A DNA stretch of 64,000 bases from Pyrenophora tritici-repentis. Lineage: Eukaryota; Ascomycota; Dothideomycetes; Pleosporales; Pleosporaceae. The notes below the pieces were generated by a model that saw nothing but the letters and a program-made list of their open reading frames with translations, did not search any database and was not told the DNA's origin. The position numbers were made by a program, and so were the translations under genes. Location of the stretch: positions 2,294,001 to 2,358,000 of the forward strand of contig NC_089395.1 in assembly GCF_003171515.1 (NCBI RefSeq), written 5' to 3'. This document shows positions 5,010-50,921 of the stretch, piece by piece; positions within the stretch are counted from its first letter, which is position 1, and each line of letters opens with the position of its first letter.

Positions 5010-7109
5010 ACGTGTCTGTGCGCGTGATGCCCATAATCGCGTGCCGCACACCCCGCAACATCAACACCAATCCACCCTTACCACTTCAACCACCCATAAC
5101 TCCACAACTATGAGTTGTATCAACGCTGCGATTGAAGCTATTGAATCGCGTGATCCCGGAGATAAATTTACATACTCTGAGGTTGCGCGCCGCTTTGGTG
5201 TTGATCGCTCTACGTTGTCGCGACGCCATCAACAGATCCGGGGCTCAAATGAAGCCAAATCACGTAATCAGCAACTCCTTCACCCACACCAGGAGCTACA
5301 GCTTCTAGAGCACATTGACGAGCTTACTGAGGCTGGCTTACCACCGACGAGGACTATGATCCAGAACTTTGCTAGTGCTATAGCCGGAAGGGCTGCCTCC
5401 CAAAGCTGGGTGACGCGCTTCTTTCACCGTCATCCCGACGCGATTATATCACGTTGGTCAACTGGTTTGGACCGCAATCGCCACCGGGCTGATTCTGTAT
5501 ACAAGTACGAGTCGTACTTTGATCTACTATCTACTAAAATGGCTCAGCACCATATTCGGGCGCAGGATGTATATAATATGGATGAGAAGGGATTCCTTAT
5601 TGGAGTGACGGGGAGGAGTAAGAGAGTGTTTAGTAAGCAGAAATATGAGACTGGGGGCTTTAAGAAAGTGATACAGGACGGCAACAGAGATTGGATCACT
5701 GTTATCGCTGCTATATGTGCTGATGGGAGTACGTTACCGCCCGCGATTATATACGAAGCTACTTCGGGCAACATGTACGCCAGATGGGTTGATGATATCG
5801 CAATTGACGATCCAGTCTACGTTACCTCAAGTCCCTCAGGGTGGACCAATGATCAGGTAGGCCTGGCATGGCTCGAACAGGTGTTTGATCGCCATACGAA
5901 GGAGAAGGCCGGCAATCACACACGCTTACTCATCCTTGACGGCCATGGGAGTCACGTTACTATGGAGTTTATTGACTACGCGATCGCCCACAATATTATG
6001 TTACTCGTACTACCCCCCATAGTACCCATACGCTGCAGCCACTCGATGTGGTAATGTTCAAACCTCTGGCAGCCGCGTACTCACTCAGCTTGCAGCACTA
6101 CCTCCAGGCGAGCCACGGTCTCTTAGCTGTGAGGAAGGATGACTTCTACCGTCTTTTCAAGCCTGCCTGGGACTCCTCTTTCATTAAGAAGCACGCGTTG
6201 AAGGCATTTAAAGCCACTGGGATAGCTCCTATAGATCCCGAAGTAGTACTTAAAAAGTTCCGAAAGTCAACACTAACAGCACCGCCGCCACTAGTGAACG
6301 TGAGTAGAGCTACTATCACGAACCTCATTAATCAGGCCTACGATCCGAGCTCTATTGCGGCCAACAACCTCTCAGAAATACTCCTCCGCCTCCAGGCTGC
6401 CAAAGAGATCGCCGAGTACGAGAAGGACGCACTGCGCGCGGCGCTACACGTTCACCAGAAGCCCCGCAATCGGCACGAACCTCCCCTAGATCTACAGCAG
6501 CGAAAAGCGTTCCATTCAGGGGCAGTTTGGTGGTCGCCGTGCAAGCTTCGAGAGGCCCGCTTCAGGCAGCTAGTGAAGGAGAAGGAGAAGGAGAAAGAGC
6601 TACTTGATAAGATAGAGTTGAAAGAGGCAAAGGAGAACAACAGGATCTATCAACTTAAGATCAAAGAGGCAGCGCGGGCGGCGCGTGAGGAGGCAAAGAA
6701 GGTGCGGGATGAAGCCAAGGCTGTAAAGGCTGCCGAACTTGACGCCAAACGACGCGATCGCGACGCTGCAAAGGCTATACAACAACCCCAATCGGGCAAG
6801 CGTAAGGCTTCAAAGCCCGCTGCAAAGCAACAGCCAAAAAAACGACGCGTGGGTGGTGCTGGCGGTGGCACTCTGGCTGAGGTGGCTGCACCGGCTCCCC
6901 CACCAACAACCACCCGACGCGGCCGGGCCGTCAATACTCCGGCAAAATATAGATAGACAAAGTTGTAGAGCTACGTCTATAGATCAATACACCGGAAAAT
7001 CTCGCGATAATAGTTATTGTACGTGGCTGCACAGCCTCAACTTTGCCGTCGTCGCGATATTGGTGGGGTGTGCGGCACGCGATTATGGGCATCACGCGCA
7101 CAGACACGT
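5010..7109 (+). mobile_element. pogo/Fot1-like DNA transposon A (2100 bp)
   Basis: Bounded by 47-bp inverted repeats that are perfect by inspection and begin ACGTGTCTGTGCGCGTGAT. A TA target dinucleotide lies on each side (5008-5009 and 7110-7111). Inside is a transposase gene broken by one base. The ends resemble those of element C (ACGTGTCCGTGCGCGTGAT), so A and C belong to related families. Confidence 0.93.
5110..6956 (+). pseudogene. pogo-type DDE transposase with a single frameshift
   Basis: Reads as one transposase over two frames. The first part (5110-6054) has the N-terminal helix-turn-helix (KFTYSEVARRFGVDRSTLSRRH), a CENP-B-like second DNA-binding domain with SWVTRFFHRH, the first catalytic Asp in YNMDEKGF and the second in LLILDGHGSH. 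The frame is lost at a run of six C at 6013-6018. Adding one C would restore the LPPHSTHTLQPLD motif seen in the intact relative at 14881-16737, with the third Asp. The second part (6048-6956) carries the rest, a Lys/Glu/Ala-rich coiled region and the C-terminal KYR shared by this group. Either a recent mutation in a homopolymer or a sequencing error. Start is the ATG at 5110. Confidence 0.88.
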
Positions 7110-12582: not shown

Positions 12583-14726
12583 CAGTCCGTGCGCACCCAA
12601 CGAGCCAGTTCAGCCAACGAGCCACCCCAACCCCCGCTGCCTCATGAACCCACCCAACTGCGACGCGTCATAACTCTACAACCATGGACCCGATTCAAGA
12701 AGCGATTGAATATATCGAATCGCGTGGGGCTGGAGATAAATTCTCGTACCGCCAAGTTGCAAAAATATTCGGAGTTGATCGAACGACGCTGTCGCGAAGG
12801 CACTGGGGCGCACAGCAACCCCGGGGCACAGAGGCGGCCGAACATCGACGAAACCTTAACCCACAACAAGAGGATGAGCTTATCGGATACATAGAAGGGA
12901 CTACAAGAGACGGCGTACCACCTACAAGGAGTATTTTGAGAAATTTCGGCAGCGCGGTTGCGCAGCATGAGGTTTCGGATAGCTAGGTTACCCGGTTTTA
13001 ACAACGTCATCCCGACGAGCTTATCACCAAATAGGACACCGGTATGGATCGTGAGCGTCACTTAGCTGACAACAAGCGTAAATACGAGTTGTACTTCAAC
13101 TTGCTGCACTCTAAGATGCGAGAACATGGGATTGAAGAGCGCAACACGTACAATAGGGATGAGAAGGGCTTCTTTGTTGGTATCGCCCACCGCAGGAAGA
13201 GGATCTTCTCTAAGGCAGTTTATGAGTCAAAGGAGCGTACCGCGGCGATGAGAGATAGTAACAGAGAATAGGTAACGCTGCTGGCTTGCGTATGCGCTTC
13301 TGGAGAGGCATTGCCGCCCGCTCTCATCTACTAGGGCATCTCTAGGGTTCAATTAAGCTAGGTTGACGACCTGTTGGCCGAAAAATACTAGGTTTTCGTA
13401 TCCCACTCAGCTTTGGGATGGTTAAATAATAATTTAAGACTTGCCTAGCTTTAACAGGTCTTCGAACGCTATACAGCAGCCAAAGCTCGCCGGCAATAGC
13501 GCCTTCTAATCCTTGACGGCCACGCCAGCCACCTCACGCCCGATTTTTTGGAGTATTGTGAAGCCAAACGCATTATAGTTATAGTGTATCCACTACATTC
13601 TACACACAGTTTGCAGCCGTTGGATGTCGTGCTCTTTTCGCCGCTTTCGAAGCACTACACCGAGGAGCTTACCTAACGCCTCTAGCGAACCTAAGGCCTC
13701 TTAAGGATTACTAAACGCGACTTCTACAGCAACTTTTGGCCGGCTTAGAGCTCTATAATAACTCACGATCTTATATTAAAGAGTTTTTAAAGCTACAGGC
13801 GTATAGCTGATGGACGCAGACCCGGTACTTCAACGCTTCAACAACCAACCACAACAATAAGATGACGAGCCAGGAATTGGAGAGCAAGGCGATAGCGATA
13901 CCTAGCCTTAACTGCGCAAAATTTTTAACGCTGCGGTGGCTGACAAGGCCAAATTTAAAGCTAAACGGCTGTCCTAAGGCCTACACTCGCTGCAGGTTAA
14001 CAACGAGCTTTTCCGCCTCCAAAACGCGGAGCTACGCGCTGAACTCAACCTTATAAGGTCCCGCCCGTCTAAATCAACAACACTGACTACTCAAGAGGGC
14101 GACAATTGGCACGGCGGAGCTGTATTCTACAGTCCTAGGAAGCTTGCCAGCGTCCGCGCGCGCAAGGCCGCAGAACTGGACGAAGCCGCGGAGCTACAAC
14201 TCCAAAAAGCTCGCGATAGAGAGAGAAAAGCAGCAGAAGCTGCTAAGAAAAAGCGCTCTCAAGAAGCTGCAAAGGTGGCTCGACAACAAGCCAAAATTGA
14301 GAGGGATGCCAAGCAGTTACGGCAGCGTGAGGAGAAAGCTGCCGAACGGGCACTTAAAAAGCAACAACAACAAGCTGCAACCGCTTAAAAAAGTCGCGAT
14401 ACAGCAAATAAGCGTAAGCGAGAAGCCTTACATAAACTAGCAAAAAACCGACAAAGCGTCGTCGTGTTGTTGCTCCATTAAGTCGGGTTGACGCTGGTCG
14501 GCCTGAGGCGCCCTCCCCACCCAGATTTGGCCTGCGCGAGCGCCAACTTAAGACACCAGCGAGATACAAGTAGTGCAAACGCTTTAGTAGCGTCAATATA
14601 TTAATATCCCCCAAAATCTCACGATAATAGCTTTTGTGGGTGGCTCAATAACCTCATCTTTTTTGTCGTCTGATCTTGTTGGGGTGGCTCGTTGGCTGAA
14701 CTGGCTCGTTGGGTGCGCACGGACTG
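12583..14726 (+). mobile_element. pogo-like DNA transposon B (2144 bp), degenerate, inside the hAT
   Basis: Inverted repeats of about 50 bp start CAGTCCGTGCGCACCCAAC. TA lies at 12581-12582 and 14727-14728. The right-hand TA is shared with the left side of element C, which starts at 14729, so the two elements abut across a single TA. Confidence 0.92.
12684..14573 (+). pseudogene. Degenerate pogo transposase (element B)
   Basis: Starts MDPIQEAIEYIESRG, parallel to the intact element C protein (MDPIQAAIEDIE). The helix-turn-helix (FSYRQVAKIFGVDRTTLSRRH) is clear, and a C-terminal ARYK ending is recognisable before the TAG at 14571-14573. Between them are many stops and shifts. Several stops are TAG exactly where the intact relative has Trp (after S at about 12985, after K at about 13031, and near 13270 and 13355). 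TGG-to-TAG changes are what repeat-induced point mutation (RIP) produces. Not functional. Confidence 0.88.
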
Positions 14727-14728
14727 TA

Positions 14729-16835
14729 ACGTGTCCGTGCGCGTGATGCGCGGATTCGCGTGATGCGCGGGGAACACCATATCCACTACTTCAAAAATGA
14801 AGCTATTAAGCCACGTATATAAGCTGTTATTATACGAATTTATAGAGGGGGAGTAATTAGATGCTTGCGATCAACTTGTACTATCTATATTTTGATGGGA
14901 GGTTGACGTTGCGGCCACGTGATGTGAGCTTTGATGGAGGAGCTGGAGGCTCTTCTTGAACTTGAGCACCAGCGCGAGCAGCCTCAACGCGTTTTTGACG
15001 CTTGTTGTTCGATGAGGTAGCTGCTGAAGCTCTCCTCTTTCCCTTTTGGGGTAGTTGTATAGCTTTAGCAGCGTCTCTCTCCTCCTTCTGGCGCGCGCGT
15101 TCAGCTGCTTTCTCAGCTCGCTCAAGCTCCCTCATCTCCTTGAGTCTCTGCCTCTCCACACGCCTCTCCTCGAGCTCATCTTGACGCTGCAGTCGAGCCT
15201 CCTCGCGCTGCTTCTTGGACCGTGCTTTTTGGAGTTTCTCCTCCGTCTCATCTCGCTCCCGTACTGCTTCTCTAGCTCGAGCCTCACGCAGCTTGCGAGG
15301 AGACCAGAAGACAGAGCCACCGTGATACTCCTGGCGCTGTTGAAGGTCAAGAGCTTTGCCCTTCTTCCTGTGCTTCTTTTTATGTTGAAGAGCCTCCTTT
15401 AAGCCCTCGTTCTCATGCTTTAAAAGCTCATACTGCACAGAGAGATGGTGAACGCTTGAGCGCAGCTTTCTTGCCTCATACTGATGGCTATCATTAACAG
15501 CAGCTCGTACTAGCCGATCGAGCTTTCTCCAGTCATGATCAGAGAGCCCTGACGATGAGCTTCTCTCAGCTTCTGGCGTGCTAGCAAATCTACGAAGGAT
15601 AACGTTGGCATCCATCGGCCAGATCCCAGTGGCTTCGAAGGCCTTCAATATGAGGCTCTCTGTGAAGGAGGATATCCAGGCGCTCCAGAAGAGCGGGAAG
15701 AAGTCCCCTTTCTTGATTGGAATAAGGCCTTGAGCCTTATGGAGATGGTTAGTGAGCTCGTTAGAGTAGGCTTGAGAGAGTGGCTTGAACAGCACTACAT
15801 CTAGCGGCTGGAGCGTATGGGTCGAATGGGGAGGAAGGATCATGAGGAGGATCCTATGGCGATCGCAGTACTTAATAAACTCCATCGTGAGGTGAGATCC
15901 ATGGCCATCAAGGATGAGCAATCTCCATCTACCTGATCGTTGCTTTGTAGAGCGATCAAACACCTGCTCCAGCCAAGCTAGGCCTACGTTATCATTTGAC
16001 CAGCCTGTTGGAGATGATGAGACAAAGACCTCATGTTCTCCTGCCTTGATATCTTCTACCCAACTCGATCGTATAGCTCCATTTTTAGCTGCGTAGATAA
16101 GGGCTGGAGGCAGCGAGCTCCCATCAGCGCAGCAGCAGGCCAGGACTGTCAGAAACTCGCGTGATCCATCCTGGAGAGATGCTCGAACCTCCTTCTTCTC
16201 CCATTGACGCCTGCTGAATATCCTCTTACTTCTGCCTATCAAGCCAATTAAGAAGCCCTTCTCATCCATATTGTATATATCTCGAGCCTCTAGGTGATAT
16301 TCGGTGATCTTTCGATGCAGCAGCTCGAAGTAGAGTCTATACTTTGACTCAGAATCAGCCAGGTGGCGCGTACGATCCATGGCGCTGGTCCACTTTGAGA
16401 TGAGATGGATCTCGTGTCGGTTGATGAAGCGAGTAACCCAGCTCTCGCTGAGCTGCTGATGGGCTACTTCTGATGAGAAATTCCTGATCATCTCTCGTGT
16501 AGGAGGAATGCCTCGCTTTGTGAGCTTTTCGATATATCTCACAAGCTCTAGCTCTTGTTGTGGGTTGAGTTTCTGCTGGTTGAAGTTCTTGTCTCTTTCT
16601 GAGCTTGTCTGGCCCTGGTGCCTTCGGGTCAACGTAGATCTCACAACACCATGCTTAGCAGCAATTTTAGTATACGAGAACTGTTCTCCTGGCTCTAGAT
16701 TTTCAATATCTTCAATCGCAGCTTGAATTGGGTCCATATTGGTGGAGTTAACGTGTGTTGAAGGTGAAGGGGTTTGACGTGTTTTGGTGTTCCCCGCGCA
16801 TCACGCGAATCCGCGCATCACGCGCACGGACACGT
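14729..16835 (-). mobile_element. pogo-like DNA transposon C (2107 bp), apparently intact
   Basis: Inverted repeats of about 50 bp start ACGTGTCCGTGCGCGTGAT and are perfect by inspection. TA lies at 14727-14728 and 16836-16837. It carries an uninterrupted transposase, so it is a candidate autonomous element. It sits immediately next to element B, using B's flanking TA as its target. Confidence 0.94.
14881..16737 (-). CDS. pogo-type DDE transposase, intact, 618 aa
   Basis: Cut-and-paste transposase. Order of parts: N-terminal helix-turn-helix (QFSYTKIAAKHGVVRSTLTRRH, about residues 18-40); CENP-B-type DNA-binding domain ending SESWVTRFINRH; DDE_1 catalytic core with Asp in YNMDEKGFLIG, Asp in LLILDGHGSH and Asp in HTLQPLDVVLFKPL; then a long Glu/Arg/Lys coiled region from about residue 480; and a basic tail ending KYR. 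It fills the element and has a normal start and stop with no interruption, unlike elements A and B. No introns needed. Possible source of transposase for element A-type ends. Confidence 0.93.
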   Translation of the reverse strand: MDPIQAAIEDIENLEPGEQFSYTKIAAKHGVVRSTLTRRHQGQTSSERDKNFNQQKLNPQQELELVRYIEKLTKRGIPPTREMIRNFSSEVAHQQLSESWVTRFINRHEIHLISKWTSAMDRTRHLADSESKYRLYFELLHRKITEYHLEARDIYNMDEKGFLIGLIGRSKRIFSRRQWEKKEVRASLQDGSREFLTVLACCCADGSSLPPALIYAAKNGAIRSSWVEDIKAGEHEVFVSSSPTGWSNDNVGLAWLEQVFDRSTKQRSGRWRLLILDGHGSHLTMEFIKYCDRHRILLMILPPHSTHTLQPLDVVLFKPLSQAYSNELTNHLHKAQGLIPIKKGDFFPLFWSAWISSFTESLILKAFEATGIWPMDANVILRRFASTPEAERSSSSGLSDHDWRKLDRLVRAAVNDSHQYEARKLRSSVHHLSVQYELLKHENEGLKEALQHKKKHRKKGKALDLQQRQEYHGGSVFWSPRKLREARAREAVRERDETEEKLQKARSKKQREEARLQRQDELEERRVERQRLKEMRELERAEKAAERARQKEERDAAKAIQLPQKGKRRASAATSSNNKRQKRVEAARAGAQVQEEPPAPPSKLTSRGRNVNLPSKYR

Positions 16836-19959: not shown

Positions 19960-22884
19960 ATGGCTACGATGAATAGTGATCTTCTGATCACGAAGACGAC
20001 GGTGATTCTCGATCAACCGTCAGATTGGCAGAAGTGGATCTTCCTGCGCAAAGATAGCGCGCAGCGGAACGATCTATGGGCGTACGTTAACCCTAACGTT
20101 GCGACAGAAACAGTACTCAAGCTCGAAGATGAGAAGCCTGCGAAGAAAGAAGCAGGAGTTTTCTACGGACGAGGCCGAACGGCCGGCATGGTTTACGACC
20201 TCGAGCATCTCGATGAGCACGAATACCGGAAGTACTCAGCCTGGTACACTAGTTACCAGAAGGAACTAACAAAGTTCGAAAAGAAAGAACTCGCTTTAAG
20301 GCAGTTCAACAGCGAGATCGCGACAACGATCTCAGAGCGTCGACTTCATTGGATCATGAATCTAGATACGCCGCACGCACGATTGAGGAAACTCAAGAAC
20401 CAGCTCTGTCCATCGACAGCAGAGCGAGAGACTCAGCTACTCTCGCAATACCTGGCGCTTCGCAAGATGCCAAAGCGCGCCAACATTGAATCCTGGCTTG
20501 ATAGCTGGGAGGAGCTCCTTGAGCTTATGGCCGCGGCTGAGATGGCAGAAGTGAAGGGTACAAGGGCACAGCGGGACTTTCTCGACTCGGTGCAATCGAC
20601 TGATGATTCATGGGCTACATCACAAAGGATTAGCATGATCGCAAAGCAAGAGGAAGGAGAGTCCTTCTTACCAGCGGTTGATCTTGTGGGGCGATTTCGA
20701 CTATACTATCGGCAAACGAAACCAGTGGCTTCAACGCTGGGAACCTTTGCGGCGTTAGGCGACCCACAGGAAATATCACAGGATACTGATAAGTTTCGAA
20801 AGATTAACTGCCTGTGTGGAGAGAAGCATCGCTTTATTGATTGTCCGTACGTCAACTCAGCAAAGCGTAGCTCTGGATGGAAGGCGGATTCAGATATGAA
20901 GAAGAAATTCGATACTATCCGAAGCAGAGGCGAAGGCAGCAGAATCTCAGCTGTATTAAGATCAGTAGAAGCAAAGCTCGCTAAGCAAGCTCAGCAGAGT
21001 AAGCCTCAGTCAGCTGCCTTTGACGATGGAAGCACGAAAAGTGGTCGAAGCTCAAATGCTTGTCTCCAAGTAGAGGCTACTCAGCAGTCTCCATCGCTGC
21101 TAACGCGATGGATACTCGACCCAGGATCGAACCTTCACGTGTCTAATCATCGAAATTCGACTTGGCGTAAGCTTGCAGATGCTAACGCCCATGACGAGAT
21201 CTTAGCTGGAGGTCAGCGTATTCCGATCAAGGAATGGGGTGAGGTTGAGATCATGATCAACACGCCTCACGGAACATCCCAAATTAAGCTTACTTGGGTA
21301 GCGTATATCCCGAGCTTCTTTACCTCTCTTGTCGCTCTCTCACGATGCCGTACGATGGGAATTGAGTTCGACTCAGGTCGAGACTGCCTATACCAGAAGT
21401 CGCCAAAGAACGTCGTGTGTAAGCTTAGTCCCGAAGGAGGGCATTGGCTGATGGATTCGGACGAAAATGAGAGACCGCGTGTAGAAGACCTGCAGTCTAC
21501 GAGTGTAGCAGAGTCTACAAGTGTAGCAGAGTCTGTTAATGCAGCAGAAAAGAGAAGGATTCAAGCGGTGAAACCATCGTACGCTGATCGACGACCGCTT
21601 GAGCTAACGGCGGAGGAAGCCCATGAGATTTGGGGCCACCCGAGCGCTAAGGTTATCTCAAAGCTCGAGCAGGGTGTCGATGGTGTAAAGATTAAAGAAG
21701 GCACAATAGCGCCAACTTGGGAGACCTGTACGACATGTATTGAAGCAAAGCTTCATAAGTTCAAGAGCCGAAGGCCTCCGCGAGAACCAGCCACCCGACC
21801 ATTCGAAAGATTGGCTATCGATCTCGTACAGCTGCGTGAGACAGGCGAGCGCTGCTATAACGGTGACGTTTGGCTATTCCATGCGGTGTGCCAGAATTGC
21901 AAGCTTCACCTAGCCGCATGCCTACCAAACAAGTCAGCACCAATGCTCTTAACGGCAGTCGAGCGCTTGCTAGCACGAATTAAGACTCAGTATGGTGTCA
22001 AGGTTCGTGCAGTGAAAATCGACGGCGAGCGAGGATACAGCCTACTACATCAGCTCTTTCTTAACCGAGGTATTGAGATTGAAACAAGAGCTCCGTACAC
22101 TGAGGAGCAGAACGGCCTCATCGAGCGCGCTGGCTCAACAATAATCGTCCGAGCTCGCGCAATCCGAATTGGATCCGGTCTGCCCAAGGAGCTGGCCAAC
22201 GAGTGCGTCATGACCGCAGTATATCTACTCAATCGAACACCAGTCGAGTCTCTTGGCTGGAAGACGCCTTATGAAGTCGCAGGTGGACACAAGCCTTCGA
22301 TGGCTCACCTAAGCAAGATAGGCGCACAGGCGTACTACCTCAACACCAAGCTGAAGCGTGGCGACAAGATGGAGTCTCGAGCGCTTATCGGCCACTTAGT
22401 TGGATACGATTCCACCAACATTTTCAGGATATGGCTCCCAGAGTCACACACTGTTATCCGCACCCGAGACGTCGTATTTCGTCCGAATACAAGATACGAT
22501 GGCAGAACAGTCTACGCAGATTTGAGGGTGGCACGTACAGTAAAGACAGTACTTGATATCGCCGACTACGAAGGCGAGATAGAGGAACTAGAGATTAGTG
22601 AGCTTCTAGAGCTCGCTGCTCCGCTTGGTTTGCATGGCACTGAGATCCTAGAAGAGGATGAAGCACATAATCAGTTGATAGAAGAGCTATTACAGCAGTC
22701 AGCGAAAGGGGATCAGAGCCTACCAACGCCTGAGGGCACACCTGCAAGATCGATTGACCCAGGAGGATTATCAGTCTCGCCCGATGCGAGAGGAAGGAGA
22801 AGTAGGGCCGCGAGCGTTGAAGAAGAGATTAGCTTGCCAAAGGGCTACGAGCCAGTGCAAGCACAGTCCGCAACAATCAATTAA
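19960..22884 (+). CDS. Copia polyprotein, N-terminal part: Gag, protease, integrase
   Basis: 974 codons from the ATG at 19960. Gag region with a UBN2-like helical domain to about residue 270, then a zinc-knuckle-like CLCGEKHRFIDC (about residues 286-297). Aspartic protease site WILDPGSNLHVSN (about residue 385; DPG instead of DSG, as in many fungal Copia). Integrase zinc-binding HEIWGH...CTTC (about residues 560-595), then the DDE core with LAIDLVQLRE, VKIDGERGY and EEQNGLIERAG. The frame ends seven codons into the MITE at 22862, so the stop at 22882-22884 belongs to the MITE, not to the retrotransposon. Confidence 0.92.
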   Translation: MATMNSDLLITKTTVILDQPSDWQKWIFLRKDSAQRNDLWAYVNPNVATETVLKLEDEKPAKKEAGVFYGRGRTAGMVYDLEHLDEHEYRKYSAWYTSYQKELTKFEKKELALRQFNSEIATTISERRLHWIMNLDTPHARLRKLKNQLCPSTAERETQLLSQYLALRKMPKRANIESWLDSWEELLELMAAAEMAEVKGTRAQRDFLDSVQSTDDSWATSQRISMIAKQEEGESFLPAVDLVGRFRLYYRQTKPVASTLGTFAALGDPQEISQDTDKFRKINCLCGEKHRFIDCPYVNSAKRSSGWKADSDMKKKFDTIRSRGEGSRISAVLRSVEAKLAKQAQQSKPQSAAFDDGSTKSGRSSNACLQVEATQQSPSLLTRWILDPGSNLHVSNHRNSTWRKLADANAHDEILAGGQRIPIKEWGEVEIMINTPHGTSQIKLTWVAYIPSFFTSLVALSRCRTMGIEFDSGRDCLYQKSPKNVVCKLSPEGGHWLMDSDENERPRVEDLQSTSVAESTSVAESVNAAEKRRIQAVKPSYADRRPLELTAEEAHEIWGHPSAKVISKLEQGVDGVKIKEGTIAPTWETCTTCIEAKLHKFKSRRPPREPATRPFERLAIDLVQLRETGERCYNGDVWLFHAVCQNCKLHLAACLPNKSAPMLLTAVERLLARIKTQYGVKVRAVKIDGERGYSLLHQLFLNRGIEIETRAPYTEEQNGLIERAGSTIIVRARAIRIGSGLPKELANECVMTAVYLLNRTPVESLGWKTPYEVAGGHKPSMAHLSKIGAQAYYLNTKLKRGDKMESRALIGHLVGYDSTNIFRIWLPESHTVIRTRDVVFRPNTRYDGRTVYADLRVARTVKTVLDIADYEGEIEELEISELLELAAPLGLHGTEILEEDEAHNQLIEELLQQSAKGDQSLPTPEGTPARSIDPGGLSVSPDARGRRSRAASVEEEISLPKGYEPVQAQSATIN

Positions 22885-23023
22885 GTGGGTCCTAGAAGGT
22901 TCAGATTGGATTGATTGATTACCGCTTTAAGCCTAGTAGTTACCTATAGGAGTTTAAGCCCTACCTAGATAGGTAAGTGGGTCTAGGAGAGTGACCGGAT
23001 TGAATTGATTGTTGCGGAGTCTA
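22862..23023 (-). repeat. 162-bp hAT MITE, copy 1, inside the Copia polyprotein
   Basis: Same 162-bp sequence as copies 2 and 3, in the opposite orientation. Its ends are TAGACTCCGCAACAATCAA and CACAGTCCGCAACAATCAA. Perfect 8-bp duplications AGTGCAAG lie at 22854-22861 and 23024-23031. It splits a continuous polyprotein: the frames on each side align in phase once the MITE and one duplication are removed. Confidence 0.96.
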
Positions 23024-23024
23024 A

Positions 23025-24926
23025 GTGCAAGGGGGTCAAGAGGCGCCGAATCGTCGCGAAAACAACGCGCCAAGGCGGACGGATCCTGCCATTACGTCAG
23101 ATAACATCGTTGCCGGTAAACGTACTAGAGGCAGCGCTCATGCGGCGTATCTCTCCACTTTCGCAGTAACATATCTATCGACCTTTGCCTCAGCAATCAA
23201 TCCGGTTAAAGCACGAGAGCTTCACGAGCCTAAGAAGGTTCGCCTCCATCGAGACCATCTTCCACCTCCACCGAAACGTTGGTCAGATCTCGAACGCCAT
23301 CCGTTTGGCAACCGTTTCAAGCTTGCAGCACAAGCTGAAATGGACGATATAGTAAGAAAGGGCTGTTTCAAGCCAGAAGCTCACGAAGAAGGCGTCGCCG
23401 AGGGTGAGATACTGCCGCTAATGTGGGTGTTTACCTACAAATTCGATGAAGACGGCTATCTCACGAAGTTCAAGGCACGCTTAGTTGTAAGAGGCGACTT
23501 ACAACAGATATACGAGGACACATATGCGGCTACACTAGCAGCTCGGATCTTCCGATTCCTTGTTGCTCTAATGGCTGCCTTTGGCCTAAAGGCCTTCCAG
23601 TATGATGTACTGAATGCGTTTCTAAACGCAAAAGTCGACCGTAAGATCTACGTACAGACACCAGAAAGTTACGTTGATCAATTTGGTCCGCTACTACGGT
23701 TGTGGCGAGCCTTGTATGGTCTGAAGGAAGCGCCGCTGTTATGGTACAACGATCTCTGCACTTCACTGCGGAAGATGGGACTTAAGCCAGTGCCAGGCAT
23801 CCCATGTTTGTTTACAAACGAAAAGCTTATTGTCTTCTTCTACGTTGACGATATTGTGGTTCTGGTTCGACCAGAAGATCTCGCAGCTCATGAAGAGTTT
23901 GAGCGTGCGCTTAAGGATCGATACGAGATACGTTGCTTAGGTAAGCTTGGTTGGTTCTTAGGCATCCGCGTCGTACGCGATGAAGAGCAAGGGAAAGTTT
24001 GGCTGTTACAGGACTCATTTGTCGACAAGGTCGCTGCCAACTTCAAACTGCAGAAGAAATCCGGACGATACCCAGCAACTCCGCTGAATGAGGGGCTAGG
24101 CCCGAGTGATGAAGAACCAAACGCCGAGCTTACGAAGGAGTTTCAGAGCCTTACTGGCTCACTAGCATTCATCTCATGTATCACTAGACCGGACGTTGCG
24201 AAAGCGCACTCAGTGCTCGCACAGCATCTTCAGAATCCAAACCAAAAGCATCTCGCTGCCGCCAAACACGTTTGGGAGTACCTGATTGGTACTCAGTACT
24301 ACGCTATCTGCGCTACAGCACTTCGAACCGAGAGTGCGTCGTATATCACAGAGGGTGAAGCAAATGAGGCAGGAGTGGAACCGTTGTTCTTTGGTGCCTC
24401 TGATGCTGCCTTTGCCGACAATCTCGAGACGCGCAGAAGCTCGCATGGCTTTATGTTCAAGCTATACGGGATGCCGATTGACTGGAAGGCTACAGTGCAA
24501 CGCTCAGTCACAAAGTCAACTACTGAAGCAGAGCTGATGGCTCTCTCTATTGCAGGGGCTGAGATGGAGTGGTGGCAACGCGCGTTCAAGAACGTTAAGT
24601 TTGAGCTCGAGTTCACACCACAGCTCTTGTGTGATAACACAGCCACGGTTGGTATCGTTACTAAGAGAGAAGATCGGCTTCAGACAAAGCTTCGTCATGT
24701 GGATACTCATCAGATGTGGCTCCGCCAGGAAGTCGAGCAGAAGCGAATACAGGTCAATTGGGTGCCTACAGATCAGATGCCCGCAGATGGTTTGACCAAG
24801 GTACTACCTCGTCAAAAGCATGAGAGTTTTGTCAAGCAATTAGGGCTTGAAGATATCCGGAGTATTATTACTCCAAGAGAAAATAAGGAAGCAGAGAAGG
24901 GAGTTAAGCTTTCAGCGTGGAACTAG
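23025..24926 (+). CDS. Copia polyprotein, C-terminal part: reverse transcriptase and RNase H
   Basis: 633 codons open from just after the MITE; it has no natural start of its own (the first codon is GTG within the target duplication). Reverse transcriptase region includes FQYDVLNAFLNAKVD, LYGLKEAPLLWYN and the catalytic VFFYVDDIVVLV. RNase H/tether region has GASDAAFADN, SVTKSTTEAELMALS, LCDNTATVGIV and VDTHQMWLRQ, ending PADGLTKVLPRQKHESFV. The fragment is the downstream half of the polyprotein interrupted by the MITE at 22862-23023. Without translation from an upstream start it should not be expressed. Confidence 0.92.
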   Translation: MQGGQEAPNRRENNAPRRTDPAITSDNIVAGKRTRGSAHAAYLSTFAVTYLSTFASAINPVKARELHEPKKVRLHRDHLPPPPKRWSDLERHPFGNRFKLAAQAEMDDIVRKGCFKPEAHEEGVAEGEILPLMWVFTYKFDEDGYLTKFKARLVVRGDLQQIYEDTYAATLAARIFRFLVALMAAFGLKAFQYDVLNAFLNAKVDRKIYVQTPESYVDQFGPLLRLWRALYGLKEAPLLWYNDLCTSLRKMGLKPVPGIPCLFTNEKLIVFFYVDDIVVLVRPEDLAAHEEFERALKDRYEIRCLGKLGWFLGIRVVRDEEQGKVWLLQDSFVDKVAANFKLQKKSGRYPATPLNEGLGPSDEEPNAELTKEFQSLTGSLAFISCITRPDVAKAHSVLAQHLQNPNQKHLAAAKHVWEYLIGTQYYAICATALRTESASYITEGEANEAGVEPLFFGASDAAFADNLETRRSSHGFMFKLYGMPIDWKATVQRSVTKSTTEAELMALSIAGAEMEWWQRAFKNVKFELEFTPQLLCDNTATVGIVTKREDRLQTKLRHVDTHQMWLRQEVEQKRIQVNWVPTDQMPADGLTKVLPRQKHESFVKQLGLEDIRSIITPRENKEAEKGVKLSAWN

Positions 24927-43423: not shown

Positions 43424-43978
43424 TTAACCCTTCAACGGGGCCCAGTCCTTGCGCGCCTGCTCGCTCATGAAGGGGCCGATGTAGTGCATCTTGCCGAGAG
43501 TGAATCCAGTCATCCTCAACAGCATGTACATAGTGTTGAGGTGGAAGTAGCTGTTGGGAATGACGAAGCTGGTGACGTGGTCTTCAACGGCAGTGATGTG
43601 GAGGGTCTTGCTGGCGACCTCAATGTCAAGCTTGTTCTGGGCGCTCTCGTTCCATGCCTTCTCGTCAACAGAGTCGATGACAGCAACGAGCTGCTTGAGG
43701 AAGTTGATGACGTCGTCGAGGGACTTGAAGGAGGTCGGGTCTAGAGTAGGTGACTTGGCCGAAGGCTTGGTGTTCTCCAATGGTCCGAGCATGAACTTGG
43801 CGAGGATGATGGGTTGCATGCGGAAGGGCAGCATGTCGCCGAATTGGGAGTCGAGGACCTCCTCATCGCTAGGGAGAGCCTCGTTCTTGGACTGCTCCTC
43901 CTTGGCGGTGGTGAGGAAGCTGATGGCGCTCGTAGCGATACCACGGAAAGTGGGGATAGAGGTCTTGTGGAAGGACAT
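43424..43978 (-). CDS. DUF1993 family protein (second copy in window)
   Basis: 184 residues, no intron. Matches DUF1993 along its length: N-terminal FRGIATSAISFLTTA helix, GDMLPFRMQPIILAKF, SFKSLDDVINFLKQLVAVI, and the C-terminal PNSYFHLNTMYMLLRMTG then GKMHYIGPF. It differs from the three-exon copy at 1806-2463 in having no introns and a longer middle part. Function unknown; fungal members are often highly expressed small cytosolic proteins. Confidence 0.88.
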   Translation of the reverse strand: MSFHKTSIPTFRGIATSAISFLTTAKEEQSKNEALPSDEEVLDSQFGDMLPFRMQPIILAKFMLGPLENTKPSAKSPTLDPTSFKSLDDVINFLKQLVAVIDSVDEKAWNESAQNKLDIEVASKTLHITAVEDHVTSFVIPNSYFHLNTMYMLLRMTGFTLGKMHYIGPFMSEQARKDWAPLKG

Positions 43979-44555: not shown

Positions 44556-46094
44556 ATGGCGAAACGAAAGCGCAACAACGTGCAGACGAATGCTGTGAAG
44601 AAACAGACCCTCAGCCTCCCGAGTCCACCCCAAGATGCAAACCCCCTGGAACCAGCGAGTGTACACTCAGTCATCTCATCTGAAGAGATTGAGGTCGCCG
44701 TGGAAACTCTCCAAATGCTTTCGGAGCATCCGCTCTTGATCAAGTCAAAAGCGTGCAAAGAGCTTAGGACGGCTGTGTATGACTTTCGTCAAGCATGCAC
44801 CACTGGCCTCAACTCAGCTGGTACGTCTGAGATCCTTACCGAAATCATAAGAGACTAAATAAATCCCCAGAGGGCAGCAACCTCACTGCACGCATCTCAG
44901 CAGCGCTCACAGATGCCAAATATATGGAGGCGCTCATCTTACTGGCAGAGATGCGCATTAGAAAAGACACACCAACACTGGGTGCCCTTTGTCGCTGGGT
45001 GCGCACTCTAGACGTAGTCTCTGGGCTCTCAATTCACGTGCAAGTGCCTAGTCAGAATGTGGTTGGTACTAATGCGCAGAACGATGAGTTGATTCGGGTG
45101 TTGGACTCTATACTAAGGGTCACTGGACCAACTGATACAACATCCCATGGAGTAGGCGTCGCATCAGGCATCTCACTACAAGATACGTGGGATCTACGAA
45201 GCACCAGTAACCCGACTCGTCAGACACGTCGCAGAATTGAGGACAAGTCAATCTTCAAATCATGCTCTCCGGACCTCAAAGATCGATTCCGCATTATCGA
45301 AACCACACCCGGACTTCAGCGCAAACCGCCGAACCTTCATCCAGCCATCTTGTACGCATCGCAAGATGATACTGTACTACTTGGCAAAGGCCCGAAAACG
45401 GAATGCTTTAAGCACCCAATTGTACCCAACCTCCGCCTCATCAAAGACGTACTATCTCCTGAGGAGTGCTCCGCAATCATCGCAGCAGGGGAGACTATAG
45501 AATTCATCCCAGATGCACCCATGCGACCGCAAGGCGAAGATACGAGCGTGCTTGCACACAATTTCTACTGGATCGTCGACCAAGCTTTCCACGACAGGCT
45601 CTGGGATAGAGTCAAGGCTTTTGTACCAGAGAATGTGGCTGGCAAACAAGTACGCGGCATCAACCGACGTTTCAGAGTATACAGATATGTGCCTGGCGCC
45701 GAGTATCGTTGTCACATCGGTAAATATCATACCCCTTTTTGTGCTGCAGAAGCTAACCCATGCAGATGGCGCATGGCCACCGTCTGGAATCAACCCTGAG
45801 ACAGACGCTTATCAATACGATGCCTCGCCTCCCAACGCTCGCCAATCTTCGCTATTCACGTTCCTTATTTACCTCAACGACGAGTTCAAGGGCGGCGAGA
45901 CGACGTTCTTCATCCCGAGTGTAAAGGAAGGTGTCATCAACGCGTATCCGGTTAAACCAATCATGGGCAGTGTGGCTGTGTTTCCGCACGGTGAGGCTCA
46001 AGGTGCGTTGCTGCATGAGGGAACGGGTGTGGTGGAAGGTGCCAAGTATGTGATTAGGACAGATGTCGAGTATGATGTTGATGCCACGGTCTGA
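44556..46094 (+). CDS. Prolyl 4-hydroxylase-type 2-oxoglutarate/Fe(II) oxygenase
   Basis: 480 residues in three exons: 44556-44820, 44871-45719 and 45766-46094 (50- and 46-bp introns). The catalytic P4Hc domain is C-terminal: H370 and D372 (HIDGAWPPSG, with the Asp codon split by the second intron), FLIYLNDEFKGGETTFF, H455 in ALLHEGTGV, and K465 for 2-oxoglutarate. The N-terminal 200 residues are basic then helical, without a domain I know. No signal peptide, so it should be cytosolic or nuclear; it may act on a non-collagen substrate. It is 1.6 kb from the repeat precursor at 47650, but a link is speculative. Confidence 0.85.
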
Positions 46095-47649
46095 AGACAT
46101 GGCTCTTGTTTGTAATCGGAAAGAAAAGTGTATATCAAGTGGCGTTATTACGGCAAGCCAATGCGATGCAAATCTTAGATATAGTACTGTTCTACCTACG
46201 CGGCTACATTACCAAAATCCCCTCCTACAGGTACCGGCCTAACTCTTCCACCACTTCAGATCAAACTCTGAAACAAGCACACAAGATCGCGAACAGGTTG
46301 TAATACTCGCACTCACAAAGCCCGTGCGGGCATGTATACGTAGGTAGATCAGTCGACTATAGCGACAAGACCTACCGCAGGACTGAAACCCTACTCTCAC
46401 TATTTCCACAAAGATAAGCGCACTCGTTCTCACCTTCCTGCCCAGCTCGATCTGTAACAACAGAGACAAGAACATCAGACCCCAAACATCCGGAAAATCC
46501 GCTTACATGAACGATTTGAAAATGCTACCGGTCTTTTCCCCTTCAAACACGAGCTTACGTTCGGGGCCGAACGGCCCGGGGTGAGAGGTCAACACCCAAT
46601 ATATATGATTTTATATAGTTAGTTACAGATTCCGTGATTATTTTGCGAAAAGATGTGCTGCCTATCTGGAAAGATTATTGTATTTAACTTGGCAAAAGAA
46701 ACATGCACACATCAACGCTATCATGCAAACAAAACACCTCAATCAACAAACAACCCACCGAAGAAGTTCCGAAAACAAACGCCCCCACCGACGACGACGA
46801 CCATGAATGCTTGAAACTCCGGATCTTCTCTACCCACGTACCCCTACCAAAGAAATTCGAAAAATTTGGCGTATACACATCATTCTTACACTGGCAGAAA
46901 GTGCCCGTGATTACCCAAGTCAGCTGCCTAGGGTTGAATATAGGGATGTCACTGTACGCAAACCGGATAGTCAGTGGGGCCGAACTACTGCTACTTGCTT
47001 TGTTACAGTACGTCATCTTGTTTTTGGGAGCTCTATTCATGCCGAAATGATAATCAAAACTTTGCTTTACACAAGTAAAACGCTCTCGATACTGTTTGAC
47101 GTGGTTGCCGGGTATGGCAGCTTCTTTGATCCTTGGCTGCTCTTGGATGTAATTTGTAGTCGCCCTGGTGAGAGGAAGTATGGGGATGACGGCGAGAACT
47201 GGCAGGGTGTGGCTTGGGTCGGGGTTGGAATCGGAAATAGCGTTGTACCGGTGGAGGGCGAGAGAGAGAAAGAGAGAGATAGATGTCATATTCAGTGTTT
47301 TTCAACCATGACCCCCTAAACCCAAGGCAAATCCACATCAATATCAAGCAAAACACATCACAAAAGAACTTTCGCAAACAGAGCCGAAAGCGAAAGAGTA
47401 GTTTGAAGATCAGTGGTATTCTGTCGATCTATTCCATTACCTAATGGTATCTACACATAAATACAAGTTCATGCAATGCTGAACATTCGTGGGTCAGGCT
47501 ATAAACGAGTGTATGTCGGACCCCAAACCGGGGGGCCCAAATGATAATACAGGGGAGGCATAAAAGGAAAAAAAAATAAACGGTAGAAGCACAAAGAGAA
47601 ATTACTCAGTGTCGGTATCAAACTCCAATCCAGTCTCTGCGGCTTTGAT
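46095..47649. other. 1.55-kb region without a recognised gene
   Basis: A 201-codon open frame on the - strand (47289-46684) overlaps others on the + strand. None has a domain or splice support. 3' ends of the P4H-like gene and the repeat precursor lie here. Confidence 0.35.
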
Positions 47650-48846
47650 CTAAGCATTGGCCTTCTTACCTCCCTTGTTGGCCTTGCCGGCATGGTGAGG
47701 AGTGCGGGTCTCGATGTCAGCGTCGCGCTGTGCCTTCTTGCCACCCTTCTTAGCCTTTCCAGCGTGGTGGGGTTCGCGGGTCTCGATCTCAGACTCGATA
47801 TCGCGCTGTGCCTTGGCTCCGCCGTTCTTGCCGGCTTTGTTGGCCTTGCCGGCGTGGTGAGGAGTGCGGGCCTCGATGTCAACGTCGCGCTGGGCCTTCT
47901 TACCACCCTTCTTGGCCTTTCCAGCGTGGTGAGGAGCGCGGGTCTCAAGGTCGTCAGTCTCGTCTTCCTCAACATCACGCTGTGCCTTCTTGCCGCCCTT
48001 GTTGGCCTTTCCGGCGTGGTGCGGATCACGCTGGTGAAGGTCTGCAAAGTGTGCGTCCTCCTCTTCCTGAGTGGCAAACTCTTGAGCCTCAGCGTCACGC
48101 TGAGCCTTCTTGCCACCCTTGTTGGCCTTGCCGGCATGGTGAGGATCACGTGTGTGAAGGTCAGCGAAGTGGGCGTCCTCTTCGGCTTGAGTAGCGAACT
48201 CCTCATCCCGCTGGTGTAGGTCGGCGAAGTGAGCATCCTCCTCTTCCTGTGTAGCGAACTCCTGAGCCTCAGCATCACGCTGGGCCTTCTTGCCGCCCTT
48301 TTTGGCCTTGCCGGCATGGTGAGGATCACGTGTGTGGAGGTCGGCGAAGTGAGCGTCCTCCTCTTCTTGTGTAGCGAATTCTTGAGCCTCAGCGTTACGC
48401 TGGGCCTTCTTGCCACCCTTTTTAGCCTTGCCGGCGTGGTGGGGCTGGCGGCGGTCGATGGTCAGGATGAGGTTGCCATTCTTGTCCTTCTGCTCAGCAG
48501 AGCGCTGTGCCTTGGCTCCGCCATTCTTGCCACCCTTGGCCTTGCCAGCGTGGTGAGGAGCACGAGTGTGGAGGTCGGCAAAGTGAGCATCCTCTTCTTC
48601 CTGGGTAGCAAACTCTTGAGCCTCAGCGTCACGCTGGGCCTTCTTGCCACCCTTGTTGGCCTTGCCGGCGTGGTGGCGTGCCTCTATTGAACGGCCTGCG
48701 AGGGCAGAAACAAGGTTGGCAACATTGATAGGACCGCTTCCTTGCATGCGTGCCTTGACGGCATTGTCGACAACCTTGTTGTTGGGAACCACGTAAGCAG
48801 TGGTGGTAGCTCCAAGAGCCAAAAGTGTGATAGCGGAGAACCTCAT
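47650..48846 (-). CDS. Secreted ten-repeat precursor protein, candidate RiPP precursor
   Basis: 398 residues, single exon. Signal peptide MRFSAITLLALGATTTA, then a leader to residue 57. Ten repeats of a basic unit, HHAGKA-(K/N)-KGGKKAQR or close variants, start at residues 58, 98, 136, 176, 236, 276, 306, 330, 360 and 384. Nine are preceded by Arg-X-Pro (X = A, D, E, Q or T); the first follows Arg directly, which marks His-His as the likely mature N-terminus. Repeats alternate with acidic spacers such as EFATQEEEDAHFADLH. No cysteine, and the only Tyr is in the leader. Arg before each X-Pro dipeptide suggests endoprotease cleavage followed by an X-Pro/X-Ala dipeptidyl peptidase, as in yeast alpha-factor maturation. 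A UstYa-family oxidase starts 1.25 kb away in the opposite direction. It could instead be a repetitive wall or effector protein. Confidence 0.75.
   Translation of the reverse strand: MRFSAITLLALGATTTAYVVPNNKVVDNAVKARMQGSGPINVANLVSALAGRSIEARHHAGKANKGGKKAQRDAEAQEFATQEEEDAHFADLHTRAPHHAGKAKGGKNGGAKAQRSAEQKDKNGNLILTIDRRQPHHAGKAKKGGKKAQRNAEAQEFATQEEEDAHFADLHTRDPHHAGKAKKGGKKAQRDAEAQEFATQEEEDAHFADLHQRDEEFATQAEEDAHFADLHTRDPHHAGKANKGGKKAQRDAEAQEFATQEEEDAHFADLHQRDPHHAGKANKGGKKAQRDVEEDETDDLETRAPHHAGKAKKGGKKAQRDVDIEARTPHHAGKANKAGKNGGAKAQRDIESEIETREPHHAGKAKKGGKKAQRDADIETRTPHHAGKANKGGKKANA
47653..48675 (-). repeat. Tandem coding repeats of the precursor
   Basis: Ten units of 15-19 codons for the basic HHAGKA module, separated by spacers of 7 to 43 codons. 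Long spacers (23 codons) in the N-terminal half are nearly identical; short ones (7-13 codons) are in the C-terminal half. The units share sequence at DNA level, so they can expand or contract by unequal crossing over. Confidence 0.85.
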
Positions 48847-50092
48847 ATTGAAAAAATGTGAAGAATGTGTCGAATAGAAAAGACTGGTATGATATCAGAT
48901 GAATGTAATAAGATCTGCCAGCAGAGAATAGAAGGAATGAAACCGAACTGAGCAGTAGTGAGAATGAATGAGCACGTTCAACGTTGGATGCCCTTTCTTC
49001 TTGGATGGTGGACATACTTTATAACTGGACTTGATCTCCACAGACGGATGGTTACTTGCGTGCACCCTCAGGGCCTGATACAGTATCGCATTGTTCAGCG
49101 GAGATGGCATGGAAGTCTAATCCCGGTCAGTTACGTCCGTCTTTCCAATCTGACAGCGGAGACGGCTGCGTCGTTTGCGGTACGCCAAACACTGGCAGTC
49201 GTGATACAGCGTCTTCCACTAACGGCGAGGCTGCAGGCACAGGCTCGAGTCAATGCGTTGGTCTTGCGGGACATGCTCGCCTAATCCCGCAATCCTGCCA
49301 TGCGGTTCAGATATGGACTGGCAGGAGACGTGACGTGCAGGTCAGAGACTGACAGGAGGCCGCTCATTGGCCCGCACTTCAGTCAGCGCGATCGCTTCCA
49401 AGCATGGAACTGTGCTGTTCCCTGCGATTCTATCCAAACCAATGCTTTTGTCGTATTATTCCCGCTGTCCAGGTGGAGAATTTTGTTGCAAATGCGTTGC
49501 AGCAGGTCAAGTCAAGCCCGGCGCTAGCGCTAACACTTGTTTTGCCTAGCGCGCCAAGCTGAAACGATGGTGTAGTGTGTGAACGACCGCTCTTGGCTAT
49601 AGTGTCCACTACGAAACCCGTCCCTCCGCTCAGCCAACGGGATACCTGAGACACGCCGCATTGAACGTCTCAGGCGCCTTGGAAAAAAGCTTGTCGAGGC
49701 CTAATTCTCGCAACGAGGTGTGTGCAAGGCTACTGCTGCCTGGTAGACAGCCCTGTAGAACTCCATTGACCGAGGAGGCGGCGTCGTTTGACAAGTCCGC
49801 GTTTCGGGGAACCTAGCTAAATGCGATACTCTACACGTATGGGACGTCCGCGTCCTATGCCGCTGGCGCTTCTTTTCTTCTTGACTTGTTCATTCAACCG
49901 AGGACTGTTCCTTTCTTTTTTCTGCCCGTAGTCCCAGGAGTCCATCTTTCTTAACTTTCTTCCAAGGTCTGGCCAACACCATCTTATTTTTTCTCCATCG
50001 CAGGTCGATTAATATTATTACATTTTGCTCTTATTCTTTAGGCCTTTATCTATACACAAACCATCGTATTACGCCTGCATCAACACCTAATC
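48847..50092. promoter_or_regulatory. Divergent intergenic region shared by the repeat precursor and the UstYa-like gene
   Basis: 1246 bp between two divergent start codons, holding both promoters. I see pyrimidine-rich tracts before the UstYa start (about 49870-50050) but no operator I can name. A shared upstream region would allow joint regulation. This is inference from layout. Confidence 0.4.
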
Positions 50093-50921
50093 ATGGAGAA
50101 GTACACAGACTCCAGCTCTGTCCAGTCCGACTCGGAGAATGCAGCCTTCCTCAACACACAGTACCAGAAGGAGGAAAGACAACAACGGCGGAGTTACATC
50201 TATCTCACGCTGTTCAACCTTTTCCTATTCACACTATCCATACTGTCATTGATATGCACTGTCATGTCTCAAAAGGACACAGCGGGCCATTCAACGGCAG
50301 CTTTGTATGATCAATTCGACATGTTCTGTATGTTCTACGCACCTACCTCTACAGCCATCTCAGCAACTAACACATTGCCCAGCCCCCACCATGCACGTGG
50401 TCGAATACTCAAAGACAACATTCGAGCTACCCGAACCCCTGGAATCATCCGTCTACGTCGGCATCAGCAACGAAACCGAGGACGCATGGATGGACATTGC
50501 CTACCTCCCCGACCAAATGGTATCCAAGGAGGACTTCCCCAAGCTCAACATGCCCGACGACGCCCTGCAAGTCACGGACCCCAAGACGGGCGAAACAGGC
50601 TACCGCGTCGGCCTCGAGGTCTTCCACCAACTACACTGCTTGAACATGCTCCGCATGGCCACTCTTCCCGAGCACTATACCAAGCTCGAATGGAGCGACA
50701 CAAACGACAAGCCCGAGCGCGTGCGCGCTCATCTCGATCATTGCATTGAAGTTCTTCGTCTGAACCTCATGTGCCTCTCCGATGTCAACGTCTTCACCTT
50801 CCACCCTAAACCTGGCAAGGAGGGATATTGGCCAGAGTACAACTCGCAGCACGTGTGCAGGAATTTTGATCAGATCAAAGATTGGGCACGTGCAAATGCC
50901 ATGCCTTATGCTGAGGTGTAA
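50093..50921 (+). CDS. UstYa-family (DUF3328) oxidase
   Basis: 257 residues. Exon 1 50093-50327, 55-bp intron (GTATGT...CCCAG), exon 2 50383-50921; the split codon gives Ser in DMFSPTMHVV. One transmembrane segment at about residues 34-58 (SYIYLTLFNLFLFTLSILSL), with a short cytosolic N-terminus. The two HxxHC motifs that define the family are HQLHC (160-164) and HLDHC (195-199), the first followed by LNMLR and the second by IEVLR. UstYa proteins are copper-type oxidases or cyclases that modify core peptides of fungal RiPPs (ustiloxin, phomopsin, asperipin, victorin); some act on other metabolites. The neighbour, a secreted multi-repeat precursor, makes a RiPP role likely here. Confidence 0.9.

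Follow-up and report, generated by a model that had tools for sequence, protein, structure and literature searches.

A repeat precursor gene and a divergent UstYa-type oxidase gene in Pyrenophora tritici-repentis form a candidate two-gene peptide pathway

Results

A repeat precursor gene and a UstYa gene lie back to back

We analyzed a 64,000-nucleotide stretch of the genome of the plant-associated fungus Pyrenophora tritici-repentis (assembly GCF_003171515.1, contig NC_089395.1, positions 2,294,001 to 2,358,000 of the forward strand), hereafter the window, in which a gene for a putatively secreted repeat precursor and a gene for an oxidase of the UstYa (DUF3328) family are divergently transcribed. 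A sequence-only reading of this DNA had proposed that the pair makes a ribosomally synthesized and post-translationally modified peptide (RiPP). The features of the locus are listed below in window coordinates; P0002 is a precursor homologue from Didymella exigua.

47650..48846, minus strand: repeat precursor gene, 398 amino acids, intronless, stop included (sequence and homologue P0002)
48796..48846, minus strand: signal peptide, residues 1-17 (by inspection; P0002 start similar)
48676..48795, minus strand: conserved leader, residues 18-57 (alignment with D. exigua)
47653..48675, minus strand: array of ten HHAGKA basic units, residues 58-398 (each after [I/L]xxR, nine also after x-P)
48562..48630, minus strand: acidic peptide unit 1, DAEA-QEFATQEEEDAHFADLHT-R
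48328..48396, minus strand: acidic peptide unit 2, NAEA-QEF...
48208..48276, minus strand: acidic peptide unit 3
48148..48207, minus strand: short acidic unit, DEEFATQAEEDAHFADLHTR
48028..48096, minus strand: acidic peptide unit 4
49018..49023, minus strand: TATAAA, 177 bp upstream of the precursor ATG (consensus match only)
48847..50092, no strand: divergent intergenic region common to both genes, 1.25 kb
50093..50921, plus strand: UstYa/DUF3328 gene, 257 amino acids, exons 50093-50327 and 50383-50921 (Pfam, sequence, and P. teres orthologue model)
50625..50639, plus strand: first HxxHC motif, HQLHC
50730..50744, plus strand: second HxxHC motif, HLDHC

The precursor frame contains no internal stops, compared with 3 and 25 in the other two frames of the same strand, and the open reading frames (ORFs) that cover the array on the opposite strand or in other frames (e.g. 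47692-48219 and 47499-48416) were set aside as shadows of the repeat. The protein begins with MRFSAITLLALGATTTA followed by YV, which is signal-peptide-like by inspection; the putative cleavage site reads TTA, compared with an AxA-type site in the D. exigua homologue. Cutting at Arg resolves the precursor into a regular series in which ten basic pieces alternate with acidic ones. The basic pieces take the form HHAGKA[KN]KGGKKAQR, with two longer variants carrying an NGGAKAQR tail and a last copy that ends KKANA at the stop, and the order is [LI]xxR, x-P, HHAGK...KKAQ-R, and then acidic units. Tyr is absent beyond residue 18 in the window precursor and in the D. exigua homologue alike. KK is present in 8 of the 10 basic units, and RR at residues 132-133 is the sole KR/RR site. 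The cationic peptides have a calculated charge near +4 to +5, and the calculated average masses are 1431.6 for HHAGKANKGGKKAQ, 1445.7 for its Lys variant, and 2118.1 for QEFATQEEEDAHFADLHT. Of the 24 Arg codons, 22 are CGT or CGC, and 94% of the Lys codons are AAG, an AAG preference exceeding that of 8 of the 9 other window coding stretches (the exception being a DUF1993 gene); this codon bias fits a real, perhaps well-expressed gene.

The UstYa protein, encoded around a GT..AG intron at 50328-50382, matches the Pfam UstYa profile (PF11807) with 197 bits against a cut-off of 25 and has a hydrophobic N-terminal helix, transmembrane by inspection. The start codons of the two genes are 1,247 bp apart. 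In an AlphaFold2 model of the P. teres orthologue (mean predicted local distance difference test score 78; predicted template modeling score 0.63), the HxxHC motifs lie on helices 157-171 and 189-210. A fold search of this model against the PDB had no match within the E limit of 0.001, the best being 1.5, and a search by sequence gave no clear relative of solved structure (best E 0.26). Overall, what the sequence-only reading had described at the locus, namely ten Tyr-free, HHAGKA-led basic repeats behind a signal-like start and, 1.25 kb away, a divergent UstYa protein with both HxxHC motifs, is borne out.

Predicted cleavage and trimming sites suggest probable peptide N-termini

We examined the residues around the Arg sites of the precursor. 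The P4 position is Ile or Leu at all 10 Arg sites immediately before HH units and is Leu, Ile, or Val at 13 of the 22 Arg sites overall, compared with a share of 6.6% among all mature residues. P4 of the D. exigua homologue is Leu, Ile, or Val at 21 of 28 Arg sites, and 25 of 28 are accounted for when Ala and Pro are included. The Leu/Ile/Val counts were matched in 0 of 20,000 composition draws for both proteins, and with Ala and Pro added the window count was reached in 44 of 20,000 draws and the D. exigua count in 0 of 20,000; these statistics are guides only because Arg sites within repeats are not independent. LxxR with an aliphatic P4 is an accepted extended Kex2 motif according to the accessible part of PMC8528282.

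We also examined the residues following these sites. An x-P dipeptide precedes HH in 9 of the 10 window units and in 5 of the 6 D. exigua units, the first unit in both proteins starting directly with HH; x is Ala, Gln, Asp, Thr, or Glu in the window precursor, and Pro is invariant. The acidic units start D/N-A-E-A-QEF in the window precursor (four copies) and directly with QEF, after VEAR or IDAR, in D. exigua. XA or XP after a Kex2 site is the signature of Ste13, as far as the accessible text of PMC6339444 goes. The strongest argument that HH and QEF are true N-termini is that both homologues converge there once the XA/XP dipeptides are trimmed. At the other end of the array, the final unit ends KKANA-stop where the others have AQR, as if Arg were the boundary. 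The genome gives profile matches to one P_proprotein (kexin-type) and two DPPIV_N domains. Kexin-processed repeat proteins (KEPs) are recognized by at least three similar units of at least 8 residues between Kex2 sites, and this precursor has ten basic units with upstream [LI]xxR sites. We regard it as very probably a real KEP.

A D. exigua homologue preserves the plan of the precursor and an acidic peptide

A full-length protein search, which scored the 7995 candidates sharing most words with the precursor (candidate proteins of about 219-696 residues), identified one homologue: P0002 of D. exigua, with 397 residues and an E of 1.9e-37. With the leader removed, the pair scored 147 bits compared with at most 45 in 100 shuffles, and over residues 1-57, 37 of 57 aligned positions are identical. 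The homologue shares the plan of the window precursor, including HHxGK and the acidic peptide. A leader-only protein search (residues 1-64; 50 candidates) returned no match at E up to 10, and no paralogue was found in the genome that contains the window. The lack of an annotated homologue in P. teres and others is not the same as absence of the gene, as repeat genes may be unannotated. P0002 also has a mid-protein spacer made of seven short pieces (SVDSR, SVVDAR, SVDAR, SVHAR, SVHAR, SVDAR, and SIDAR), each ending at an Arg site with Val or Ile at P4.

Synonymous differences amount to 44% among the 10 HHAGKA copies and 79% among 5 EFATQxEEDAHFADLH copies, and the proportion of nonsynonymous differences (pN) is 0.000 and 0.015, respectively; because the copies were chosen by peptide, pN is partly circular and the synonymous proportion (pS) is the informative figure. 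All ten Arg-defined basic units have HHAGKA, and therefore no diverged basic copy was dropped. Because synonymous sites differ widely and protein change is nearly absent, the repeats are, judged from their sequences, not the product of recent slippage.

The acidic peptide QEFATQEEEDAHFADLHT-R, present in four full copies and one short one, matches QEFDQAADDAHWADLHT-R in D. exigua, which has four copies. The two are identical in 13 of 19 alignment columns, one column being a gap, and in 9 of 10 across DAH[FW]ADLHTR, and the pattern common to both species is QEF...DAH[FW]ADLHT. Because one of the acidic blocks is kept in D. exigua, they are not all spacers, and some are best read as conserved peptides in their own right. 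Five other acidic pieces do not contain the QEF peptide. The sequence-only reading had taken all of these blocks for spacers, a view corrected here for the QEF peptide; it had likewise overlooked the Kex2/Ste13-like boundaries and the prior listing of this kind of precursor in print.

The UstYa protein looks vertically inherited in Pleosporales

The window UstYa protein is 95% identical to that of Pyrenophora teres and 85% identical to that of P. seminiperda. With an E limit of 1e-30, a protein search yielded 137 proteins; 120 of them are listed, each row being a 90% cluster. Of these 120, the 103 with at least 185 residues were combined with the window protein in a tree of 104 rows. The window protein groups with Pyrenophora, and a 59-row clade (support 100/99) comprises Pyrenophora, Alternaria, Bipolaris/Curvularia/Exserohilum, Didymella/Ascochyta, Phaeosphaeria, and others, in groups broadly by genus. 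We take the named rows to belong to Pleosporales. Because the groups in the clade broadly track genera, UstYa looks vertically inherited in this order, in a tree whose bootstrap is not fully settled and whose deep forks are weak.

We aligned 44 of the 59 clade rows, leaving out 15 that are mostly partial or unnamed. All six HxxHC residues are kept in 32 of the 44 orthologues and altered in 12, whose genera include Paraphaeosphaeria, Bimuria, Didymosphaeria, Pleomassaria, and Lophiotrema. The altered orthologues (P0027, P0036, P0041-P0044, P0046-P0048, P0051, P0055, and P0056; e.g. HQLQC...YLDHC, with the rest of the protein kept) are possible pseudo-enzymes or proteins with a changed metal site.

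Neighboring genes and other UstYa loci

A Pfam scan of the window covered 20 sequences, namely 18 of the 34 ORFs of at least 180 residues, one shorter ORF, and the spliced UstYa. The neighbors with matches are mostly housekeeping and comprise Rrn7, Vps52, DUF1993, a 2-oxoglutarate/Fe(II) (2OG-Fe(II)) oxygenase, CAP, a PfkB kinase, and an RNase III/mL44-like protein. The oxygenase (PF13640; 32.4 bits, cut-off 27) is encoded at 44924-45719 and 45766-46094 on the plus strand; an HxD motif results when its single 46-nt intron is spliced out. We considered whether this enzyme (44924-46094) hydroxylates the Pro of x-P-HH and rejected the idea, as it has no signal peptide by inspection and x-P would be trimmed in our model. 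The DUF1993 gene (43427-43978, minus strand) is separated from the precursor by about 3.7 kb; DUF1993 also accompanies DUF3328 in a RiPP clan of lichens (PMC12048977). Elsewhere in the window, by reading, the ORFs at 5041-6956 look like a split DDE transposase, the ORF at 14881-16737 like a 618-codon DDE transposase, and 19960-24926 like a two-ORF Copia-type element.

The genome (40.9 Mb, 41 contigs) contains at least 23 UstYa exon matches, which we grouped into 14 loci. By simple arithmetic (14 loci × 2.5 kb/40.9 Mb), about 0.1% of the genome lies within 1.25 kb of a UstYa gene, a figure that is not a test because the pair was picked by eye. We scanned 11 of the 13 other UstYa loci for repeats, ten with about 10 kb on each side and one with 10 kb in all, giving 274 kb including the window. 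Of the repeat hits, the window precursor alone combines Arg-flanked units with a signal-like start, in a scan that would miss precursors split by introns or holding fewer than three close repeats. Two of the other hits, L028 484-1326 (minus strand; contig C2, about 9 kb from another UstYa gene), with seven RCATPE-like repeats, and L029 2461-3762 (plus strand), with a PQG-rich start, have no signal-like start. A third, L025 2999-3391 (minus strand; contig C2, about 3 kb from another UstYa gene), is a short-period repeat (RAVAE.SRL-like, on one strand) without a Pfam match and is perhaps a minisatellite. Hits in L012, L024, and L026 and at window 13978-14385 were set aside on the scan output alone.

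Discussion

A proposed two-gene peptide pathway

We consider it slightly better than an even bet that the locus is a two-gene peptide pathway, in which a KEP gives cationic His-His and acidic peptides and one of these is oxidized by UstYa. The signal peptide, as its sequence suggests, would take the precursor into the secretory pathway, where a Golgi kexin would cut after [L/I]xxR and a Ste13-like dipeptidyl aminopeptidase would trim the x-P, D/N-A, and E-A dipeptides. Cutting would free ten cationic peptides that start with His-His (HHAGKA(N/K)KGGKKAQ and variants) and four to five acidic ones (QEFATQEEEDAHFADLHT); the site anatomy common to two genera points to these steps. The membrane-bound, binuclear-copper-type UstYa would then oxidize one peptide, most likely the His-His end of the cationic one, as suggested by adjacency, family chemistry, and the link between di-His KEPs and DUF3328 reported in the literature. 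The His-His end is favored because the repeats lack Tyr and the DUF3328-linked di-His types are marked by HH with Pro. The product would be secreted, and the vertical descent of the enzyme weakly indicates that the role of the product is general among pleosporalean fungi and not tied to particular strains. We judge the chances that the neighboring UstYa modifies one of the precursor peptides to be about even.

The survey of Umemura 2020 (PMC7329392), from which the KEP figures below are also taken, places a DUF3328 gene no more than 15 genes away from 1758 of 7878 KEPs, the peak being at the adjacent gene; for the two widespread di-His types, the counts are 57 of 64 (G-3) and 45 of 49 (G-8). 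The peptide pathway proposed in the sequence-only reading is partly supported: the pairing of repeat precursor and UstYa stands and is of a sort that the survey shows to be enriched in fungi, and the modification is putative, as is a conservation of the pairing across species. Its caveat that the oxidase would have to use another residue, such as His, fits types G-3 and G-8.

A more specific version is that a vertically inherited pleosporalean pathway uses UstYa to oxidize the His-His end of a Tyr-free, Lys-rich peptide, through a His cross-link or hydroxylation, while the same precursor also supplies a conserved acidic partner. We put this forward tentatively and think it rather unlikely as a whole. 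We know of no His-centered cross-link or hydroxylation for the UstYa family, and the UstYa enzymes known to us to act on ribosomal peptides do so at Tyr or at other residues that are not His.

Several observations weigh against the proposed pathway. Tyr occurs in 65.6% of the repeats of DUF3328-linked KEPs, and HH content overall is alike with and without DUF3328 (5.7% versus 3.9%; PMC7329392). Alternaria has UstYa orthologues (P0006 and P0007) yet is missing from the published list of G-8 genera in the accessible text. Only one precursor homologue was found, and no row named D. exigua occurs among the 120 listed of the 137 UstYa proteins (90% clusters). The HxxHC site is altered in 12 of the 44 aligned orthologues, and therefore the gene can persist without it. 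None of the 20 scanned window sequences is a transporter, methyltransferase, tyrosinase, peptidase, or regulator, although intron-split genes or unscanned ORFs could hide one. Finally, the nine C-terminal KAQR sites, with Lys at P4 and Gln at P2, match Kex2 poorly, and the C-terminal ends are therefore less sure than the N-terminal ones, even though the last unit stops where the others have Arg.

The alternative that survives best is that the KEP peptides act unmodified, as linear signal, cell-wall, or antimicrobial peptides, and that UstYa serves something else, the two genes being neighbors by history. We judge this possible but doubtful. The absence of a DUF3328 gene within 15 genes of 6120 of the 7878 KEPs (PMC7329392), the lack of Tyr, the retention of UstYa orthologues with altered HxxHC motifs, the likeness of the cationic peptides to ordinary antimicrobial or wall-binding peptides, and a Ste13-like trimming that recalls the linear alpha-pheromones are all consistent with it. 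However, the divergent genes are closely spaced and the genome has about 14 UstYa loci, no other signal-bearing repeat precursor was found beside the 11 other loci scanned, and 45 of the 49 G-8 KEPs have a DUF3328 gene nearby.

As a variant of the two-gene pathway, UstYa could act on the acidic QEF...DAH[F/W]ADLHT peptide (at Phe, Trp, His, or Asp), with the basic units as counter-charged carriers or a second product. In its favor, D. exigua conserves the peptide, an aromatic residue is retained, and the copies differ almost only synonymously. Against it, the peptide is present in fewer copies than the basic unit (four full and one short compared with ten) and is missing from five other acidic pieces, and the published hallmark of the two Tyr-less types linked to DUF3328, G-3 and G-8, is HH with Pro, which fits the basic unit. 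We consider the variant improbable. Least probable of all is secretion of the uncut precursor as a His/Lys-rich metal-binding or wall protein: the repeats could bind metal or wall polymers, and the Arg sites are mostly monobasic, with one KR/RR site only and KAQR a poor fit to Kex2, but the aliphatic P4 at all ten pre-HH sites, the x-P and D/N-A-E-A dipeptides after the sites, termination at a unit boundary, and preservation of the plan in D. exigua speak for cutting.

If the two-gene pathway is real, its novelty would be modest in kind and real in chemistry once modification is shown, and so compact a locus, whose di-His substrate lacks Tyr, would offer a clean system for studying copper-enzyme chemistry on histidine. 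A survey of 187 Pleosporaceae genomes, 30 of them from Pyrenophora, gives RiPP cluster families from Alternaria, Curvularia, and Bipolaris only in its accessible part (PMC12278603); because it gives none from Pyrenophora, the locus seems to have been missed by the survey pipeline. The locus thus suggests that antiSMASH-type surveys can miss precursor/UstYa pairs.

Comparison with known systems

Six precursor peptide strings had no match in the accessible literature, and the strings HHK, HHG, HHA, and PHH occur nowhere in the main texts of two RiPP papers. Literature listings, which cover subscription literature thinly, revealed no product of a DUF3328-linked di-His precursor. The accessible parts of PMC8146201, PMC5915480, and PMC9410150 hold nothing specific to the locus.

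With the dikaritins (ustiloxin, phomopsin, and asperipin-2a), the locus shares a putative signal peptide, tandem repeats with protease sites, and an adjacent UstYa with two HxxHC motifs, and the pathway would work like theirs. In contrast to dikaritins, no Tyr-containing core to be joined through a ring is present, the neighbors are mostly housekeeping-type, and the scanned window sequences include no tyrosinase, methyltransferase, peptidase, or transporter. Because the Tyr core and accessory genes are lacking among the sequences scanned, this is not a classical dikaritin locus, and a likeness to ustiloxin, phomopsin, or victorin cores is not supported. Alpha-type sexual pheromone precursors resemble the window precursor in having a Kex2-like site followed by x-P or x-A dipeptides that would be trimmed to a fixed N-terminus. 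However, the alpha-pheromone motif contains Trp/Cys, and the window peptide is unrelated, lacking this motif; the window precursor also has a UstYa neighbor and two alternating peptides. The cyclochlorotine hydroxylase CctR, a DUF3328 protein, likewise has a transmembrane helix and HxxHC(x)nHxxHC on helices; its motif forms a binuclear copper center, and the enzyme resides in the Golgi, endosomes, and vacuoles, but its substrate is a nonribosomal peptide (PMC12435403, accessible part).

The closest likeness is to the di-His KEPs of types G-3 and G-8, which are secreted repeat precursors with a di-His motif with Pro and a nearby DUF3328 gene (PMC7329392). The kind is already known, as the same survey records G-8 precursors from Pyrenophora and from related genera that include Parastagonospora, Bipolaris, Exserohilum, Epicoccum, and Ascochyta. 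G-8 precursors were detected by dibasic sites, whereas the Arg sites of the window precursor are mostly monobasic and LxxR-like; the dibasic rule would probably also catch it, with KK in 8 of its 10 units. The window precursor has the x-P-HH repeat and the adjacent DUF3328 gene, its genus is on the published list, and, matched to the published description and not to sequences, it probably belongs to type G-8.

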